Shown piece by piece: positions 32,370 through 42,763 of a stretch of 64,000 bases of DNA. This DNA comes from Streptomyces sp. NBC_01235 (GTDB lineage: Bacteria; Actinomycetota; Actinomycetes; Streptomycetales; Streptomycetaceae), in assembly GCF_035989285.1 (NCBI RefSeq), contig NZ_CP108513.1, positions 6,138,001 to 6,202,000 of the forward strand, given 5' to 3'. The first letter of the stretch is position 1. Each line of letters opens with the position of its first letter. Made by a program: the position numbers and the translations under genes. A model generated the notes under the pieces. That model was not told the DNA's origin. It searched no databases and worked only from the letters and a program-made list of their open reading frames with translations.

Positions 32370-33302
32370 TCACGCTCCTTCCTGGGCCCACACGACGGGC
32401 CCCTGGTACGGGAAGAACCGCTCGGCGACCGCCTCCGCCGAGGCCATGCAGGCGGTCTGCAAGTCCCGTAGCAGCAGCGGCAGTTGTTCTTCCAGGGCGT
32501 GGGTGTCGAGGTATTCGAGACGGGTGCGCAGCCGGCCGATGGGCCGGCGGGCCGGGTCCTGGCGGGGGCGGCCGAGCGCGCTCAGGCACTCCTCGGCGGT
32601 GGTGAGGGCGTGCAACGCCGAGCGCGGGAAGTCCCGGTCCAGAAGCAGGAATTCGGCCACTCTCGGGGTGTCGCCGAAACCGCCGTACACGCGCGCGTAC
32701 GCCTCGTCGGCGCCGGACGCGCTCAGCAGGGTCGGCCAGTCGGGCGCGTGGGCGGCGTCCAGCACGCGCACGGACAGCAGCCGTACGGTCATGTCCACGC
32801 GCTCCAGGCTGCGGCCCAGGACGACGAACCGCCAGCTGTCGTCGCGGCTCATCGTGGAGTCGGCGAGCCCGAAGAAGAGGGCCGCGCGGCTGCGGACGAG
32901 CTCCAGATAGCCGTAGGGGCCCGTACGGCGGGCCGCGCGGCGCTGCTCGGCGAGGGCGTGCCAGGTGGCGTTCAGGCATTCCCACATCGCCGAGGAGACG
33001 GCCTCGCGGGCACTCCTGGCGTTCAGCCGGGCGGCGCCCAGCGCGCCCTCGATCGAGCAGGTGGAGCGGGAGTCGAAAGCCAGTTGGTCCAGGACCTGCT
33101 GCATGTCGACGGCGTCGGAACCCGCGTCGACGCCGAGGATCGCGTACAGCGACCGGCAGGCCACGTCCTCGTCGCGCCAGGGGTCCTCCAGCATGCGGTG
33201 CAGGTAGGCGTCGAGGATGCGCGCGGTGGCGTCGGCCCGTTCGACGTAGCGGCCGGTCCAGGTCAGCGCTTCCGCAATGCGGGAGAGGATCACGTCGTTC
33301 AC
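32370..33302 (-). CDS. Alpha-E domain protein
   Basis: 310 residues, all helical, with the family start LSRIAEALTWTGRYVERADA, the middle RSREAVSSAMWECLNATWHAL-type block (here AREAVSSAMWECLNATWHA) and a FLLLDRDFPRSALHAL segment. Alpha-E proteins always accompany the circularly permuted ATP-grasp and the transglutaminase-like protein. The start overlaps the stop of the ATP-grasp gene (ATGA). Confidence 0.9.
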   Translation of the reverse strand: MNDVILSRIAEALTWTGRYVERADATARILDAYLHRMLEDPWRDEDVACRSLYAILGVDAGSDAVDMQQVLDQLAFDSRSTCSIEGALGAARLNARSAREAVSSAMWECLNATWHALAEQRRAARRTGPYGYLELVRSRAALFFGLADSTMSRDDSWRFVVLGRSLERVDMTVRLLSVRVLDAAHAPDWPTLLSASGADEAYARVYGGFGDTPRVAEFLLLDRDFPRSALHALTTAEECLSALGRPRQDPARRPIGRLRTRLEYLDTHALEEQLPLLLRDLQTACMASAEAVAERFFPYQGPVVWAQEGA

Positions 33303-34846
33303 TGCTGCTGCGCCCCTTCCTGTACGCCGGCGGGGGCCCCGTCGGGGCCGAGCTGGCGGGGTGCGACGGCCGGCGGCGCGTCGTCTGCCGGCAGGGCGGC
33401 CGGACCGTCCGTCGGGCCCTCGGCGAGGACCCAGGTGTCCTTGGAGCCGCCGCCCTGGCTGGAGTTGACGATCAGGTTGCCCTCCTGGAGCGCCACCCGC
33501 GTCAGCCCGCCCGGCAGCACCCAGATATCACTGCCGTCGTTGACGGCGAACGGCCGCAGGTCTATGTGGCGCGGTGCCATGCGTTCGCCCGCGAGGGTGG
33601 GGGAGGTCGACAGGGCGACGGGCCGCTGGGCGATGAAGCCGCGCGGGTCGGCGGCGACCGCCTTGCGCGTCTTCTCCAGCGTCTTCGCGTCGGCCTTCGG
33701 GCCGATGACGATGCCCTGCCCGCCCGCGCCGTCGACCGGCTTGATGACCAGCCGGTCGATCTGGTCGAGAACGGCGTCGAGCTGCCCGGGCTCGTCGGGG
33801 CGGTACGACTCCACGTTGGGAAGAATCGGTTCCTCGCCGAGGTAGTACCGGATCAGGTCCGGGACGTACGTGTACAGCAGCTTGTCGTCGGCGATGCCGT
33901 TGCCGACGGCGTTGGCGAGGGTGACCTTTCCGGCCACGGCCGCCGTCATGATGCCCGGGCAGCCGATCACCGAGTCGGGGCGGAAGTGGAGCGGGTCGAG
34001 GAAGTCGTCGTCGAGCCGCCGGTAGACGACGTGGACCGGGACCTCGCCCTTCGTGGTGCGCATCCACACCCGGTTGTTGCGGCACACCAGGTCGTGCCCC
34101 TCGACCAGCTGCACGCCCATCAGCCGTGCCAGCAGGGCGTGTTCGAAGTAGGCGGCGTTGCTGGGCCCGGGGGTGAGCACGACGACCCGTGGGTCCGCGG
34201 TCCCCCCGGGTGCGGCGGCGCGCAGGGCGGCGAGCAGCCGCGCGGGATAGCCGTCCACCGGCACGACGTGCTGCCCGTCGAAGAGGGAGGGGAACACCCG
34301 GGTCATGGCCCGCCGGTTCTCGATGACGTACGACACCCCGCTGGGTACCCGGACGTTGTCCTCCAGCACCCGGAAGTCCCCCGCCTCGTCCCGGACGAGG
34401 TCGATGCCGGCGACGTGGATGCGCACCCCGCCGGGCGGTTCGACCCCGTGGGCCGCGCGGTGGAAGTGAGGGGAGCCCAGCAGCAGCCGCCAGGGGACGA
34501 CACCGTCCTCGAAGGCGCGACAGGGCCCGTAGGCGTCGGCGAGATAGGCCTCCAGGGCCCTGACTCTCTGGCTCACGCCCCGTTGTATGAAATCCCATTC
34601 CAGTGCGTCGAGGATTCTGGGTACGAGGTCCAGCGGCCAGGGCCGCTCCTCGCCCGCGAAGGCGTAGGTCACGCCACGGTCGGTGAAGGCGCGGGCCATC
34701 TGGTCGGCCCTGAAGCGCAGTTCACCTGGCTCGATCGGCTGAAGCGCCGCCAGCACCGGCTCATAGGCGGTCCTGACCTCACCCGGCCGCTCGAACATCT
34801 CGTCCCACGCGTCGGCCAACGCGTACGCGTCAAATATGTCCGCCAT
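33299..34846 (-). CDS. Circularly permuted ATP-grasp protein
   Basis: 515 residues. Motifs of the type 2 circularly permuted ATP-grasp family are present: LDALEWDFIQRGVSQRVRAL, DLVRDEAGDFRVLEDNVRVP, VVLTPGPSNAAYFEHALLA, and the catalytic DRLVIKPVDGAGGQGIVIGP. The family forms amide bonds through acyl-phosphates. It is the first gene of the three-gene operon. The extra C-terminal 40 residues are Pro/Ala-rich. Confidence 0.9.
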   Translation of the reverse strand: MADIFDAYALADAWDEMFERPGEVRTAYEPVLAALQPIEPGELRFRADQMARAFTDRGVTYAFAGEERPWPLDLVPRILDALEWDFIQRGVSQRVRALEAYLADAYGPCRAFEDGVVPWRLLLGSPHFHRAAHGVEPPGGVRIHVAGIDLVRDEAGDFRVLEDNVRVPSGVSYVIENRRAMTRVFPSLFDGQHVVPVDGYPARLLAALRAAAPGGTADPRVVVLTPGPSNAAYFEHALLARLMGVQLVEGHDLVCRNNRVWMRTTKGEVPVHVVYRRLDDDFLDPLHFRPDSVIGCPGIMTAAVAGKVTLANAVGNGIADDKLLYTYVPDLIRYYLGEEPILPNVESYRPDEPGQLDAVLDQIDRLVIKPVDGAGGQGIVIGPKADAKTLEKTRKAVAADPRGFIAQRPVALSTSPTLAGERMAPRHIDLRPFAVNDGSDIWVLPGGLTRVALQEGNLIVNSSQGGGSKDTWVLAEGPTDGPAALPADDAPPAVAPRQLGPDGAPAGVQEGAQQQ

Positions 34847-35207: not shown

Positions 35208-36314
35208 ATGGCCGGGCACGGGACGGAGGAACATCCACACGGTGCCGACCGACTGTGCGACGCCGGGGATCGCGTGTATTCCCGGGCCGTACGGCGCGGT
35301 CGGGTGGCGCGGACCGACGCCGAGCCGGTCCCGTGCCTCCTGGAACTGGCCCTCCTCCACCCCGATCCCGACGACATGGACTGGCTGGTGCCGACCTCCC
35401 CGCAGGAGGTCATGACCCGGCTGCTGCGCGGACTGTACGACGAGGTCAGCGCGAGTCGGCGGCGGATGGGCTCGGCGGTCGCCGCCTTCGAGTGGTACGC
35501 GGGCCTGGGCGGTCCGGCGCGGGGTGCGACGGCCGGGGAGGGCGCGGCGATCCGTGTCCTGGACGGCTCCTCCCGGATCCAGGCCGCCCTGGACGCGGCG
35601 ACCGAGGCGTGTACGACCGAGGTCCTCACCGTGCAGCCCGGCGGCATCCGGCGTGAGCACGAGCTGTCGGAGGGCCTGCACCGGGCGTTGGAGCTGCGCG
35701 GCCGGGGCGTGCGCATGCGCGACCTCTACAACCACGTCGCCCGGCACGGCCAGGGCCTGCTCACCTACCTGGAGCTGATGGGCGACGCGGTGGAGGCCCG
35801 CACCCTGGACGAGGTCATCGACCGGCTGATCCTCTTCGACCGCACGGTCGCCTTCATCCCGGCGAACACCGACCGCACGATGGCCCTGGAGCTGCGCCAC
35901 CCGGCCCTCATCTCCTACCTGGTGACGGTCTTCGAGCGGCTGTGGCGGCTGGCGATCCCGCTCACCGCCCCGCTCCCCGACACCCGCATCGAGGGCATCT
36001 CCCACCGCGAGCAGTCCATCGCCGCCCTGCTGGCGGAGGGCCACCAGGACGCCGTCATCGCCGAACGCCTGGGCATCAGCGTCCGCACCTGCCGGGCCCA
36101 CATCGCCCGCCTCTCCGAGACCCTGGGCGCCGCCAGCCGGACCCAACTGGGGGTGCGGATCGCCCAGGTCGGCCTGGACCGGCCGTCCGGGGTGGCGGGG
36201 AGCGGAGGCGGGACGGAGACGCTCAGTCTCCCGGCCCCGGCTCCTGACCCCGACCCGGCCCCGGCGCCGGCTCTGGCTCCTGACCCCGGCCACGGCCCCG
36301 GCGCCAGCTCCTGA
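35208..36314 (+). CDS. HTH regulator, paralogue 1 (plus strand)
   Basis: 368 residues from ATG 35208, with GGGATGGG upstream; a GTG at 35196 is possible. A conserved N-terminal block (ADRLCDAGDRVYSRAVRRG, then EPVPCLLELALLHPDPDD) is followed by a TrmB/PLD-like sensor region (TEVLTVQPGGIRREHELSEG; RGVRMRDLYNHV) and a LuxR-type helix-turn-helix at about 275-335 (HREQSIAALLAEGHQDAVIA, then SVRTCRAHIARL). The C-terminal 35 residues are Pro/Asp/Ala repeats that run into a tandem-repeat array. It is the only plus-strand member of the three paralogues here. Confidence 0.75.
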   Translation: MAGHGTEEHPHGADRLCDAGDRVYSRAVRRGRVARTDAEPVPCLLELALLHPDPDDMDWLVPTSPQEVMTRLLRGLYDEVSASRRRMGSAVAAFEWYAGLGGPARGATAGEGAAIRVLDGSSRIQAALDAATEACTTEVLTVQPGGIRREHELSEGLHRALELRGRGVRMRDLYNHVARHGQGLLTYLELMGDAVEARTLDEVIDRLILFDRTVAFIPANTDRTMALELRHPALISYLVTVFERLWRLAIPLTAPLPDTRIEGISHREQSIAALLAEGHQDAVIAERLGISVRTCRAHIARLSETLGAASRTQLGVRIAQVGLDRPSGVAGSGGGTETLSLPAPAPDPDPAPAPALAPDPGHGPGASS

Positions 36315-36712
36315 CCCGGCCGCGGCCGCGGCCCCGGCTCCTGACCCCGACCCGGCCCCGGCGCCGGCTCTGGCTCCTGACCCCGGCCACGGCCCCGGCG
36401 CCAGCTCCTGACCCGGCCACGGCCGCGGCCCCGGCGCCAGACCCTGACCCGGCCACGGCTCCTGACCCCGACCCGGCCCCGGCGCAGGCCCTGGCTCCTG
36501 ACCCCGGCCACGGCCCCGGCGCCAGCTCCTGACCCGGCCACGGCCGCGGCCCCGGCGCCAGACCCCGACCCGGCCCCGGCCTCGGCTCCTGGCCCGGTCC
36601 CGGCCGCGGCTCCTGACCCGGCCGCGGCTCCTGACCCGGCCCCGGCTCCCGGCCCGGCGCCGGCTCCTGACCCGGCCCCGGCCTCTGACTCCGGCTCACC
36701 CTCGCGTTCACC
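36230..36712. repeat. GC-rich tandem repeat array across the regulator's 3' end
   Basis: About 480 bases consist of degenerate repeats of units such as CCGGCTCCTGACCCCG and GGCCACGGCCCCGGCGCCAG. The array begins inside paralogue 1, contains its TGA (36312-36314) and ends just before the convergent paralogue 2. ORFs read through it on either strand are repeat artefacts. Confidence 0.85.
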
Positions 36713-36714
36713 TG

Positions 36715-37725
36715 CTACCGCTCCGGCTCCCGGCCCCGGCCCTGTTCCCGGTCAAGGATCCCCGACCGCCCGATGAGGTAGCCGAGTTGGGCGCGGCTCT
36801 CGCTGCCCAGGGTGGCGGCGAGTTTGGCGATGTGGACGCGTGCGGTGCGCACGTTCATGCCGAGGCGGTCGGCGATGACGGCGTCGGTGTGGCCCTCGAC
36901 GAGGAGCGCGGCGATGGCCTGCTGACGGGGCGTCACCCCGTCCAGGGAGGGGCGTCGGACGGCCTGCGGGTACATGGGTGTGGCCAGGCGCCAGAGGCGG
37001 TCGAAGGTGGTGGTGAAGTAGGCGAGGAGCGCGGGGTGGCGGACCTCCAGGGCCAGTCGGCCGTCCTCGCCGGCGGGGATGAAGGCGACCGTGCCGTCGA
37101 TGGCGATGAGCCGGTCGGTGACCTCGTCGAGGGTCCGGGCCTCCGCGTCGCCCCGGAGCTGCTCGTAGCGGGCCAGGACGAGGGGCTGGTGGCGCTGGGT
37201 GTGCTGGTAGAGGGTGCGGATGCGGCAGCCCCGGTCCAGCAGGGCCTGGTCGCGGGCCATGGCGACGCCCTGGGCCGTCTCGCCGCGCGGCCCGTTGTAG
37301 TGGACGTTGGGCTGGATGCAGAGCACCTCGCTGGTCGCCTCGGCCATCGCCTCGGTGATGGCCGCGTTGATCCGTTCCGTGCCGCTGAGAACCCGCAGGG
37401 ACGCGGGATCCGGTGGGAGCGTGCGGCTGCCGGTGACGCGCATGAGGGGTTCGAAGAGCGACGCCAGCTGTTCCTCGCGGCGCCGTTCCTCGGCGATGCG
37501 GGTGCCGGAGGCGCGCAGCAGCCGGTGCAGGGCGAGGGCCGGGGGCACGGGTTCGAGCCGGGCCAGGTCGTCGACGACCGGGTGCAGCAGGCCGAGGTCG
37601 ACAAGGCAGGGCGCCGGTCCGGCGTCGGCGTCGCTCACGTGTCCTTCGCGCAGGGCGCGGGCGTACAGTTCCAGGCCCGGCCCGCACAGTTCCTCCGGAC
37701 CGTGCGGGTGCGCCGGTGTCGTCAT
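36715..37725 (-). CDS. HTH regulator, paralogue 2
   Basis: 336 residues. The N-terminal block ELCGPGLELYARALREGHVS, then PCLVDLGLLHPVVDDL, matches the other two paralogues. The sensor region has SGTERINAAITEAMAEATSE and DRGCRIRTLYQHTQRHQ, and the helix-turn-helix at about 260-320 reads TPRQQAIAALLVEGHTDAVI, then VRTARVHIAKLAATLG. It starts 30 bp after paralogue 3, so the two form one operon. Function as a DNA-binding regulator is secure from the HTH; the signal sensed is unknown. Confidence 0.75.
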   Translation of the reverse strand: MTTPAHPHGPEELCGPGLELYARALREGHVSDADAGPAPCLVDLGLLHPVVDDLARLEPVPPALALHRLLRASGTRIAEERRREEQLASLFEPLMRVTGSRTLPPDPASLRVLSGTERINAAITEAMAEATSEVLCIQPNVHYNGPRGETAQGVAMARDQALLDRGCRIRTLYQHTQRHQPLVLARYEQLRGDAEARTLDEVTDRLIAIDGTVAFIPAGEDGRLALEVRHPALLAYFTTTFDRLWRLATPMYPQAVRRPSLDGVTPRQQAIAALLVEGHTDAVIADRLGMNVRTARVHIAKLAATLGSESRAQLGYLIGRSGILDREQGRGREPER

Positions 37726-37755
37726 ACGTGACCTTGGGTTTCTTCGGGCGGGACG

Positions 37756-38739
37756 TCAGGGTTCCTGCTTCAGGATCCCCGACTGGGCTATGAGGAAGCC
37801 GAGTTGGGCGCGGCTGCCACTGCCCAGGGCCGTGGCGAGTTTGGCGATGTGGGCTCGGCAGGTGCGGACGTTCATGCCCAGCCGGCGGGCTATCGCCTCG
37901 TCGACGTGCCCCTCGACTAGGAGCTTGGCGATGGAGTGCTGGATGTCGGTGATGCCGTCGGGCGCGGTCTCGTACGGGGCGCCGGTGGCCAGCGGTACGG
38001 CGCGGCCCCACATGAACTCGAAGACCTTGATCAGGTAGCGGACGAGCCCCGGGTGGCGGAGTTCGAGGGCGACCTGTCCGTCGTCGCGGGTCGGGATGAA
38101 GGCCACCGTCTCGTCGCAGATGATCAGCCGCTCCACGAGTTCGTCGATGGTGCGGTACTCCACCTTGCCGTCGGTGAACTGGGAGACGTAGGCCAGTGTT
38201 TCGGGGCTGTAGCGGGCCGTGTGCTGGTAGAGGGTCCGTATGCGGCAGCCGCGTTCGATCAGCGGTCTGTCGCGCTCGAGCCCCTGGACGAGGGTGTGCT
38301 CCAGGCGGCGGCGGCTCGGCTGGACGGTGAGCATCTCGGTCTGGCACTGGGAGGTGGCCAGGTCGAGCGCCGCGTTGATCCGGTCGATGCCCTCCAGCAC
38401 CGTGATCGAATGCGTGGTCGGCGTCGGCTGGGCGCTGAGGGTCATGAACGGCTCGAAAGCGTCGGCGAGTTCGACCGACAGCCGCCTCCGCTGGGTGATC
38501 TCGCGTTCGATCGGGTTGAGCAGCTGGGACAGGGCGATCGACGGGGGCACCGGGCGCAGCCAGTTCGCGTCGTCGGGGTCGGCATGAAGCAGGGCGAACT
38601 CCATCAAACACGGAGCAGGCTCCACGTCGGCACGGGCTATGCGTCCCGTCCGAAGAGCGTTCCCATAGAGACGGCGACCTTCCTCGCACAGCTCAGTCGA
38701 CGCATGAGGATGTGTCTGCTTTGTCTCATTTTTCGTCAA
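37756..38739 (-). CDS. HTH regulator, paralogue 3, divergent from the DSTW peptide gene
   Basis: 327 residues. Motifs match the other paralogues: STELCEEGRRLYGNALRTGR, PCLMEFALLHADPDD, a middle RGCRIRTLYQHTARYSPETL, VEYRTIDELVERLIICDET, then the helix-turn-helix at about 255-320 (DIQHSIAKLLVEGHVDEAIA; NVRTCRAHIAKLATALG). The start lies 112 bp from the start of the peptide gene on the opposite strand, so this regulator is the best candidate to control the peptide. Confidence 0.75.
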   Translation of the reverse strand: MTKNETKQTHPHASTELCEEGRRLYGNALRTGRIARADVEPAPCLMEFALLHADPDDANWLRPVPPSIALSQLLNPIEREITQRRRLSVELADAFEPFMTLSAQPTPTTHSITVLEGIDRINAALDLATSQCQTEMLTVQPSRRRLEHTLVQGLERDRPLIERGCRIRTLYQHTARYSPETLAYVSQFTDGKVEYRTIDELVERLIICDETVAFIPTRDDGQVALELRHPGLVRYLIKVFEFMWGRAVPLATGAPYETAPDGITDIQHSIAKLLVEGHVDEAIARRLGMNVRTCRAHIAKLATALGSGSRAQLGFLIAQSGILKQEP

Positions 38740-38851
38740 ATCTCCACCCCCCAGGGTCCTGAACGTGCAGGAACATGATGCATCGATTGTGTGGCCATGA
38801 CGTGCCCGAATGGGCCATCGTCGTAGTCGACGGGGGAGAGGTGACCTTCAA

Positions 38852-39133
38852 ATGAGGACGAAGCCGACTATGCATAAGAGAATGCTTCGCTCGGCGCTTG
38901 CCGCCGCCTTCTCCGCCGCCTTGGCCTTCGGAGCACTGAGCGGCCTTGCGGGCACGACGGGCGACACGGCGCGCGACAGTACCTGGAGCCCGGGTGCCGA
39001 CACCGTGGTCGAGGCCGGCGACAGTACGTGGGTCGCTCCCCGCGACAGCACGTGGGTCGTCACCGCGGCGGACGTGCTGGGCGACAGCACCTGGGTCGCT
39101 CCCCGCGACAGCACGTGGGTCGCCGAGTCATGA
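38852..39133 (+). CDS. Secreted peptide with five DSTW motifs
   Basis: 93 residues from ATG 38852, with GAGAGG 9 nt upstream (an in-frame ATG lies at 38870). The N-terminus is a signal peptide: basic (MHKRMLRSA), then a hydrophobic AAAFSAALAFGALSGLA. The mature part of about 55 residues consists of DSTW units: RDSTWS, GDSTWV, RDSTWV, GDSTWV, RDSTWV, ending AES. No Cys is present. The stop overlaps the start of the next gene (ATGA). The motif density suggests a secreted signal, a modified peptide or a self-assembling surface peptide. No known family was recognised. Confidence 0.75.
   Translation: MRTKPTMHKRMLRSALAAAFSAALAFGALSGLAGTTGDTARDSTWSPGADTVVEAGDSTWVAPRDSTWVVTAADVLGDSTWVAPRDSTWVAES
39017..39122. 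repeat. 43-bp imperfect direct repeat in the DSTW peptide gene
   Basis: 39017-39059 and 39080-39122 match at about 41 of 43 bases and each encode GDSTWVAPRDSTWV. The gene grew by internal duplication. Confidence 0.85.
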
Positions 39134-39465
39134 CCACTCCACCCGACGACCGCTCCTTCCGTCGCGAAATGGCCACCGCCTACCGCTCCGGCTGGCACTT
39201 CATCGACCTGGTCACCGCCATCCCCCACAGTGGTGACTCGTTGATGGTGACGGTTTTCGGTGAGCCGGTCGTCGTGACGCGCGACGAGGACGAGGACGTA
39301 CGGGCCTACCGGTGCCTGCGCAAGCCCCGGGGGGCGCCGCAGCCCGTGCGGTGCGCCATTCGTTACGGAATGATCTTTGTGAACCTGGACCAGCGGGACC
39401 ACCGGCTCGTCGAGGCCGAAGTCCCGCCCCTGAAGACCATCTCAGCCACCCCCCGCAGTGCCTGA
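39130..39465 (+). CDS. Rieske-like protein lacking cluster ligands
   Basis: 111 residues from ATG 39130, overlapping the peptide gene stop. The N-terminal part follows Rieske oxygenase alpha-subunits (HFIDLVTAIPHSGDSLMVTV; GEPVVVTRDEDEDVRAYR). Where these carry Cys-x-His (VCRHRGAP), this protein has LRKPRGAP, so both ligands are replaced (Arg and Pro), and the segment with the second Cys-x2-His pair is missing. GMIFVNLDQ, the strand after the cluster, is retained. No iron-sulfur centre can form. Translational coupling ties it to the DSTW peptide. Homology is inferred from motif order; a structural comparison would settle it. Confidence 0.6.
   Translation: MTTPPDDRSFRREMATAYRSGWHFIDLVTAIPHSGDSLMVTVFGEPVVVTRDEDEDVRAYRCLRKPRGAPQPVRCAIRYGMIFVNLDQRDHRLVEAEVPPLKTISATPRSA

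Positions 39466-40165: not shown

Positions 40166-42763
<2,598 letters not shown>

Follow-up and report, generated by a model that had tools for sequence, protein, structure and literature searches.

A putative multicopy short-peptide pheromone and its co-diversifying LuxR-type regulator in Streptomyces

The window examined here, 64,000 nucleotides of Streptomyces sp. NBC_01235 (RefSeq assembly GCF_035989285.1, contig NZ_CP108513.1, positions 6,138,001 to 6,202,000 of the forward strand), contains between positions 35,208 and 39,465 a locus that encodes a small repeat-bearing precursor, a Rieske-related partner protein and three paralogous regulators, which we call reg1, reg2 and reg3. In our view, this locus likely specifies a diversifying multicopy short-peptide pheromone together with its cytosolic receptor, reg3, the two being exchanged as a pherotype cassette. 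The covariation of reg3 with the precursor leaves little doubt that reg3 recognizes the motif of the latter, and the two are probably connected by a full circuit in which the precursor is exported and cut and the peptide re-imported to exert control.

The precursor (38852..39133, forward strand) has 93 residues, of which none is cysteine, and consists of a hydrophobic leader of the Sec type followed by five D-S-T-W-x copies. These begin at residues 42, 57, 65, 78 and 86, which, computed from the open reading frame (ORF), places them on the forward strand at 38975..38986 (GAC AGT ACC TGG), 39020..39031 (GAC AGT ACG TGG), 39044..39055 (GAC AGC ACG TGG), 39083..39094 (GAC AGC ACC TGG) and 39107..39118 (GAC AGC ACG TGG). 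The precursor gene overlaps that of the partner (39130..39465, forward strand, 111 residues) by ATGA and is separated by 112 bp from the divergent reg3 (37756..38739, reverse strand). The repeats, the overlap and the gap had all been described in an earlier note made from the letters alone, and each was borne out.

For comparison, 240 loci with a partner identity above 50% were assembled from partner searches, a regulator search in named genomes (80 loci) and 120 fetched regions. With the window genome counted once there are 237, in which some genomes still occur twice; distinct counts are given alongside, and there are 218 distinct reg3–precursor pairs. A short ORF ends between −7 and +10 nt from the partner start in all 240 loci. 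Each of the 213 distinct precursors has at least one [DEN]xxW and, by our own hydrophobicity score, a hydrophobic leader, and 193 begin with [MV]RTKP. The reg3 gene is divergent to the precursor in 237 of 237 loci, with a start-to-start gap of 110 to 524 nt (median 113); loci found via reg3 are biased towards its presence, and those found via the partner are not. The peptide is thus found beside the regulators in other genomes, where the earlier note had taken its absence as the observation that would count against its proposal.

The motif may be written D-x1-x2-W-x3. It varies among strains, with 39 tetrapeptides in the set, among them DSTW, DSSW, DTVW, DSHW, DLGW, DIAW, DPGW, EPTW and EISW. 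Two or more copies are present in 166 precursors, and in 157 of these all copies have the same tetrapeptide; the highest number found is 18 identical DSTW copies, in locus L067. Two identical [DEN]xxW occur in 77% of the 213 real precursors and in 0 of 4,260 shuffled mature regions, so the repeat motif is not due to chance. Within a precursor the identity at x1x2 is 97.5%, compared with 12.9% after shuffling (maximum 18.2% in 2,000 shuffles). The excess identity is concentrated at positions −3 to +1 around the tryptophan (0.55 at x1, 0.78 at x2 and 0.64 at x3), is absent at −4, the residue before the motif, and is small (0.10–0.17) at +2 to +5. The chain stops exactly one residue past the last tryptophan in 82 of the 213 precursors, and these observations together suggest where the borders of the motif lie.

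Comparison of codons between copies indicates how this identity is kept. In 1,010 codon pairs, a count in which many-copy precursors weigh heavily, the ratio of synonymous to nonsynonymous differences is 288:4 at x1 and 478:21 at x2. When each precursor is counted once (n = 166), x1 shows synonymous-only variation in 86 and amino-acid variation in 2, and x2 in 110 and 7, respectively, whereas differences in the spacers between copies are mostly nonsynonymous. Recent duplication as the source of the repeat identity is ruled out because the copies differ synonymously. From these ratios, the identity of the repeats is held by purifying selection, which is the pattern expected of a multicopy precursor of one short signal; it would not be expected of a structural repeat or of recent duplication.

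If the peptide is a signal with variable letters, then its receptor must vary alongside it. Among locus pairs with reg1 sensors less than 5% apart, divergence of the reg3 sensors is 8.4% in the 56 pairs that share a motif and 24.7% in the 146 that do not, a difference that was never reached in 2,000 within-cluster permutations. A random forest trained on reg3, with relatives held out, scored 0.885, 0.561 and 0.599 for x1, x2 and x3, against 0.688, 0.274 and 0.338 for the majority class; forests trained on reg1 or on the partner fell below the majority class. Column-wise mutual information in 157 loci associates x1 with residue 136 of reg3, with an excess of 0.63 nats above shuffle, the next column being five-fold lower at 0.12. 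Residues 143, 145, 146, 148, 149, 181, 186, 188, 118, 217 and 221 are those indicated for x2 and x3. Far lower values than in reg3 are reached by the best columns of reg1 (0.06, 0.18 and 0.15 for x1, x2 and x3) and of the partner (0.03, 0.11 and 0.24, the last being its start codon). We note that one of the 157 rows (L048), with the wrong regulator as its reg3, is included in the sensor-difference, permutation and random-forest results, in the partner-plus-reg1 tree and in the contrasts given below for x3 and for other sites; the same assignment also entered the comparisons of the middle regulators and of the promoter. The residue 136 counts and the mutual information use the corrected reg3.

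Residue 136, a methionine in the window (codon ATG, 38332..38334, reverse strand), follows x1 almost as a code. In the 237 loci serine at x1 is accompanied by Met136 in 150 of 150, threonine by valine in 56 of 57, valine by valine in 4 of 4, isoleucine by valine in 9 of 9 and proline by leucine in 12 of 12; leucine at x1 is found with valine (two), isoleucine (one), alanine (one) and one gap. The 215 distinct full-length pairs give 134/134, 52/53, 4/4, 8/8 and 12/12 for the first five combinations. A complementarity of small with large in the case of Ser/Met, and of the β-branched Thr, Val and Ile with the smaller valine, is physically plausible. Because the peptide and reg3 are adjacent and possibly inherited together, contrasts were run on reg3's own tree, built either without residue 136 or without columns 100–230. 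Where x1 switches, residue 136 changes as well in 25 of 26 and 28 of 29 contrasts, the sole exception being a Leu/Ile pair; where x1 is shared, this residue changes in only 2 of 92 and 2 of 90. Residue 181 differs in 10 of 10 contrasts between proline and non-proline at x3 (control, 5 of 93), and contrasts at sites other than 136 are raised less cleanly.

The putative receptor comprises an N-terminal block, a TrmB/PLD-like sensor (PLD, phospholipase D) and a C-terminal LuxR/GerE helix–turn–helix (HTH). This HTH is found in all three window regulators, with reg3 alone below the curated cut-off of the family, and in the alignment PF00196 matches of E<=0.01 were obtained for all 70 members (one row being the L048 paralogue). 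The sensor matches TrmBL2 at 7e-11 by profile, and Foldseek relates it to TrmBL2 at 6e-13 and to PLD Nuc at 3e-6. The best solved relatives of the predicted reg3 model (mean predicted local distance difference test, pLDDT, of 83) are TrmBL2, TrmB and phospholipase D-like proteins, in agreement with the sequence profile. The phospholipase D catalytic motif is HxKx4D; HxK is absent from reg3, which therefore lacks this motif. The model and profiles likewise give no peptide-binding receptor of tetratricopeptide repeats (TPR) in reg3, and domain searches gave no acyl-homoserine lactone (AHL) autoinducer-binding domain in reg3 or its relatives. In the model the covarying residues lie in or just after strands 112–116, 135–140 and 212–216 and at helices 147–162 and 179–186, a predicted placement that suits one groove.

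Close pairs of loci indicate how the motif is replaced. Eight such pairs with different motifs were picked from the tree contrasts, of which the L048 pair is invalid for reg3 and seven were kept. In these the DNA identity is 92–98% for the partner, 93–98% for reg1 and 91–97% on the clpB side (six compared), but falls to 63–76% in the precursor and, by segment, to 71–90% in reg3. Two pairs with the same motif are evenly similar throughout. The peptide and receptor seem from these comparisons to change together between conserved flanks, as in pherotype loci.

The 112 bp promoter region common to reg3 and the precursor (38740..38851) is near-constant in length and strongly conserved across the genus, and holds a conserved inverted repeat, TCCTG-N6-CAGGA (38757..38772), which is a candidate operator. 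An extended site, TCCTGN6CAGGAACATG, has one exact copy in the genome, at this locus. No wider regulon of the extended palindrome was found in this genome at up to two mismatches (64 hits versus 58 for the control), and at regulators outside the focal locus there is no exact TCCTGN6CAGGA, the best sites having one to three mismatches in a comparison that had no shuffled control. The extended site being unique when no mismatch is allowed, the candidate operator would serve autoregulation more plausibly than a large direct regulon.

The window locus is one case of a Streptomyces-wide pattern, and the precursor gene is present in most Streptomyces examined. The partner has a match at E<=0.001 in 255 of 295 Streptomyces genomes; 12 of these matches are weaker than about 1e-17, some probably being oxygenases and some perhaps divergent partners, and about 243 are strong. 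Of 28 Streptomyces genomes searched for both genes, 23 contain a partner, and each of these also has a match at the level of reg3 (E<=9e-130); the five that lack the partner lack such a match too (best 1.5e-43). The matches listed to the partner outside Streptomyces look like full-length oxygenases, since they are weak and lie within open frames of 387 to 672 residues. In samples of the phylum, neither the stand-alone partner (296 genomes) nor reg3 (246 genomes) had a strong relative outside the family.

Similar pairs are also found beyond the focal locus. A further 61 regulator loci, some of them near-duplicates, had upstream DNA of sufficient length. In 32 of these, 28 in other genera of the Streptomycetaceae and four in Streptomyces, a divergent ORF combines a hydrophobic leader with [DEN]xxW. 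The same features were found in 0 of 438 random windows and on the divergent side of 1 of 586 other long ORFs. A peptide accompanies 31 of 48 regulators that are 34–50% identical to reg3 and 1 of 11 that are more distant, in a split where loci were counted before the upstream-length filter and a few were left out. No strong partner match is listed in the genomes of other genera, and the partner is for this reason not essential to the core design. One Streptomyces has a second locus, L306, in which a 26%-identical regulator faces a divergent secreted peptide with two DPGWQ copies. In one genus of the family (g14) there are 5 to 16 regulator matches per genome, with at most 18 candidates scored; several of the g14 regulators examined adjoin a DxxW peptide, possibly as many parallel channels in one cell.

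The other two regulators are each about 50% identical to reg3. That three paralogues with a PLD/TrmB-like sensor are present was stated in the earlier note and is correct, but its description of all three as receptor-like needs narrowing, since reg3 alone clearly covaries with the peptide. The reg1 gene (35208..36314, forward strand; start codon uncertain, the open frame being longer) is a convergent, slowly evolving paralogue, present in 166 of 197 loci of more than 6 kb. Its HTH did not pass the permutation test, and the position of residue 136 is valine in 163 of 166. The reg2 gene (36715..37725, reverse strand) belongs to the middle paralogues, which lie between reg3 and reg1 in a variable and often missing array of 0 to 4 copies; one to four are present in 124 of the 197 loci, and among L041–L120 apparent remnants occur as short tblastn fragments in L071, L085, L113 and L116. 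The middle regulators were considered as additional receptors of the same peptide, which is not supported, covariation being unclear in the 150 compared; the array is perhaps one of birth and death, with receptors for foreign or former pherotypes. Between reg1 and reg2 lies a GC-rich tandem array (36230-36683; periods 97, 121 and 6) into which the C-terminus of reg1 extends as a Pro/Asp/Ala-rich tail.

The partner was correctly described in the earlier note as Rieske-like without cluster ligands, and its likeness to Rieske proteins is weak (PF00355, E 0.013, below cut-off). The ligands of a Rieske 2Fe–2S cluster are CxH...CxxH, and both CxH and CxxH are absent from the window partner. A profile of 52 partner relatives matches the N-termini of dioxygenase α subunits at 1e-5 over aligned residues 5–67. 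In this alignment the first ligand pair of the oxygenases faces Arg64 and Pro66 of the partner; a shift of two would place Cys62 at the ligand cysteine, and the chain is so short that a second pair could hardly be accommodated. Cys62 is conserved in 192 and Cys75 in 196 of 197 partners, and the C-terminus, ATPRSA, is kept in more than 97% of the 197 despite the absent ligands. The predicted model (mean pLDDT 71; predicted template modelling score, pTM, 0.58) consists mostly of strands, with a low-confidence C-terminus. The partner is highly conserved; its near lack of covariation with the variable residues makes a role in some invariant step, for instance in handling the precursor, probable.

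The whole locus lies to one side of clpB (40166-42763, identified by reading of the ORF), which is near all of the 73 long loci. An adjacent gene pair (32370-34846) we take to encode α-E and circularly permuted ATP-grasp proteins; an ATP-grasp gene is near only 23 of the 73 and is for this reason probably outside the system.

Selection on repeat identity, the borders of the motif, the covariation, the cassette-like replacement and the conserved promoter are shown by the sequences themselves. Taken together, we propose the following circuit, in which the export and processing of the precursor, the re-import and binding of the peptide and the sign of its regulatory effect are inferred. The leader would export the precursor, which would be cut outside the cell to give several copies of one short peptide, D-x1-x2-W-x3 (here DSTW and one further residue). 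The peptide would re-enter by an oligopeptide permease, a role that may fall to the oligopeptide-binding proteins (PF00496) encoded in the genome, and bind in the TrmB/PLD-like pocket of reg3, where Met136, the loop and helix 143–152 and residues 118, 181, 186, 188 and 221 would read x1 to x3. Binding would alter the action of the LuxR-type HTH, first on the shared promoter with its TCCTGN6CAGGA repeat. Joint change of the peptide and reg3, often as a cassette, would give rise to strains with different pherotypes.

A number of observations weigh against this interpretation. Where frames competed for the precursor, the one with the most motifs was chosen by script; the leader score rests on hydrophobicity rather than on a signal-peptide predictor or proteomics; and 47 of the 213 precursors have a single motif only. 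The reg3 model has a low pTM (0.48). The HTH of reg3 also beat all 2,000 permutations, at about a quarter to two fifths of the difference seen for the sensor, and by this test it is reg3 in its entirety that diverges along with the motif. The partner was weak in the same test (93 and 2 of 2,000 at two thresholds), and in the middle regulators, although these are paralogues of reg3, covariation with the motif is not clear. Thr, Val, Ile and some Leu at x1 are not told apart by residue 136, and column 130, outside the proposed pocket, is also raised in the contrasts (0.44–0.60 versus 0.25–0.29). Shared descent of the adjacent peptide and reg3 inflates the raw association, which the contrasts answer, but on trees that carry no support cut-offs. 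Outside the focal locus, 29 of the 61 regulators have no detectable peptide and the code is looser, with Thr–Val in 8 of 9 and serine found with leucine (five), methionine (three) and alanine (one).

Three other explanations may be considered. The peptide could act in the producing cell or be sensed at its surface, with reg3 reading it as a form of self-sensing or export checking and with no loop of secretion and re-import; reg3 looks soluble and no importer or protease gene is seen within the window locus itself. We consider this improbable, as precursors in and outside the focal locus satisfy the same leader score, a released signal would be expected to vary between strains and to come in multiple copies, and import of a signalling oligopeptide by BldK is reported for Streptomyces in excerpts of PMC9640686. 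The repeats might instead be the cores of a ribosomally synthesized and post-translationally modified peptide (RiPP), tailored into a small natural product whose production the regulators control, as the earlier note had offered beside its proposal of a secreted-signal circuit. Repeated short cores, the overlap with a Rieske-related gene and a weak likeness to the thiovarsolin precursor model (E 0.009) point in this direction, but the score for that model is 16.2 bits where the cut-off is 35, the partner lacks the cluster ligands, and no co-travelling modification enzyme was noticed in the locus, where only the ATP-grasp gene was tested and other neighbours were not surveyed. Furthermore, covariation of reg3 residues with the core letters is needless for a regulator of a product. 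The RiPP proposal thus has only a slim chance, although a modified pheromone is possible, whereas the secreted-signal proposal is strongly supported by the repeats, the strain-specific motif variants and the residue-level covariation with one regulator.

It could also be supposed that the peptide and reg3 merely recombine as neighbours and that the peptide does something else, for example in the envelope or as an antimicrobial. In pairs with near-identical flanks, sharp differences do occur in the peptide and throughout reg3; the reg3 HTH also diverges with the motif, and x1 is almost random on the partner-plus-reg1 tree (40 changes versus 43 expected). Linkage predicts a diffuse association, however, and the one observed is residue-specific, with a single reg3 column far above the next and a change of residue 136 at nearly every switch of x1 on reg3's own tree; moreover, the partner gene overlaps that of the peptide, yet hardly covaries. 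Linkage alone is accordingly a very improbable account, and we return to the reading of the locus as a pheromone with its receptor.

By its parts the system is outside every known signalling family tested, and by its logic it works like the peptide pheromones of Firmicutes. The RRNPP systems of that phylum (Rap, NprR, PlcR, PrgX and Rgg) have TPR receptors, secreted precursors, pherotype co-diversification and re-import by a permease. The present locus resembles them in that a small secreted precursor is encoded next to a cytosolic receptor-regulator and the peptide is short and linear, and also in co-diversification and the proposed re-import by oligopeptide permease; it differs in that the receptor is TrmB/PLD-like and carries its LuxR HTH at the C-terminus, that the precursor often has several identical copies and that it is actinobacterial. 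The yeast α-factor precursor is likewise secreted and contains the mature peptide several times over, with spacers in between, but its receptor is a G-protein-coupled receptor, whereas here the system is bacterial, the peptide has 4–5 residues and a cytosolic transcription factor takes the receptor's place. The archaeal regulators TrmB and TrmBL2 share the sensor fold and profile match of reg3, but the HTH of TrmB is N-terminal and the protein has a sugar-binding domain (title of entry 2f5t), while the HTH of reg3 is C-terminal and of the LuxR type and its covarying partner is a peptide. LuxI/LuxR and γ-butyrolactone signalling, the latter controlling secondary metabolism in Streptomyces, offer the LuxR-type HTH and that control as parallels; the peptide here is gene-encoded and no AHL-binding domain was found in reg3 or its relatives. 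Thiovarsolin-type precursors are similar in having repeated short cores in a small precursor, and differ in the hydrophobic leader found here, the sub-threshold model score and the absence of tailoring genes, none having been noticed where no systematic survey of neighbours was made.

Our literature searches, limited to open-licence PMC papers, gave no description of this system, in agreement with the earlier note, which knew of none with this content. A counterpart in S. coelicolor is apparent from gene order. According to excerpts of the papers concerned, clpB is SCO3661 (PMC2687793), and SCO3665 (327 aa) and SCO3666 (394 aa) are listed as LuxR-type (PMC3282765). In S. violaceorubidus (L087) the ORFs read, in order, partner, DSTWG precursor, reg3 of 327 aa, reg2 of 330, reg1 of 358 and then a lipoprotein, an arrangement that the S. 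coelicolor genes fit. No S. coelicolor protein appears by name among the 120 listed of 1,064 matches. From this order and the LuxR listing of SCO3665 and SCO3666, SCO3664 is the apparent S. coelicolor reg3. A transposon screen, in the excerpts of PMC6585502, places SCO3664 ('regulator') among genes whose insertion raised actinorhodin more than 50-fold, as a negative modulator; complementation restored 12 of 16 regulator mutants tested there, and these excerpts do not name SCO3664 among them. According to work of 1996–1998 cited in PMC9640686, a peptide of 655 Da is imported by BldK and is presumed to act as a signal for aerial growth, and the low conservation of the BldK binding protein has led others to suggest different peptides in different strains (excerpts of the same paper). 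Some D-x-x-W-x peptides may be such BldK-imported developmental signals.

In our view, the locus probably represents an undescribed class of gene-encoded, pherotype-diversified D-x-x-W-x pheromones with TrmB-fold LuxR-type receptors and a partial residue code, carried by most Streptomyces examined, multiplied in other Streptomycetaceae and controlling antibiotic production, some of which may be the oligopeptide signals imported by BldK-type systems. Many antibiotics in current use come from Streptomyces, for whose metabolic switch the known signals are mostly small lactones. The question of peptide signals becomes directly testable with cheap synthetic peptides, because the locus supplies candidate genes, predicted signals from 213 distinct precursors, a receptor and a specificity residue. 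If the link to SCO3664 holds, strain-matched peptides might wake silent antibiotic clusters, and the pattern as a whole suggests that these antibiotic-producing bacteria use a family of strain-specific chemical messages not described before.

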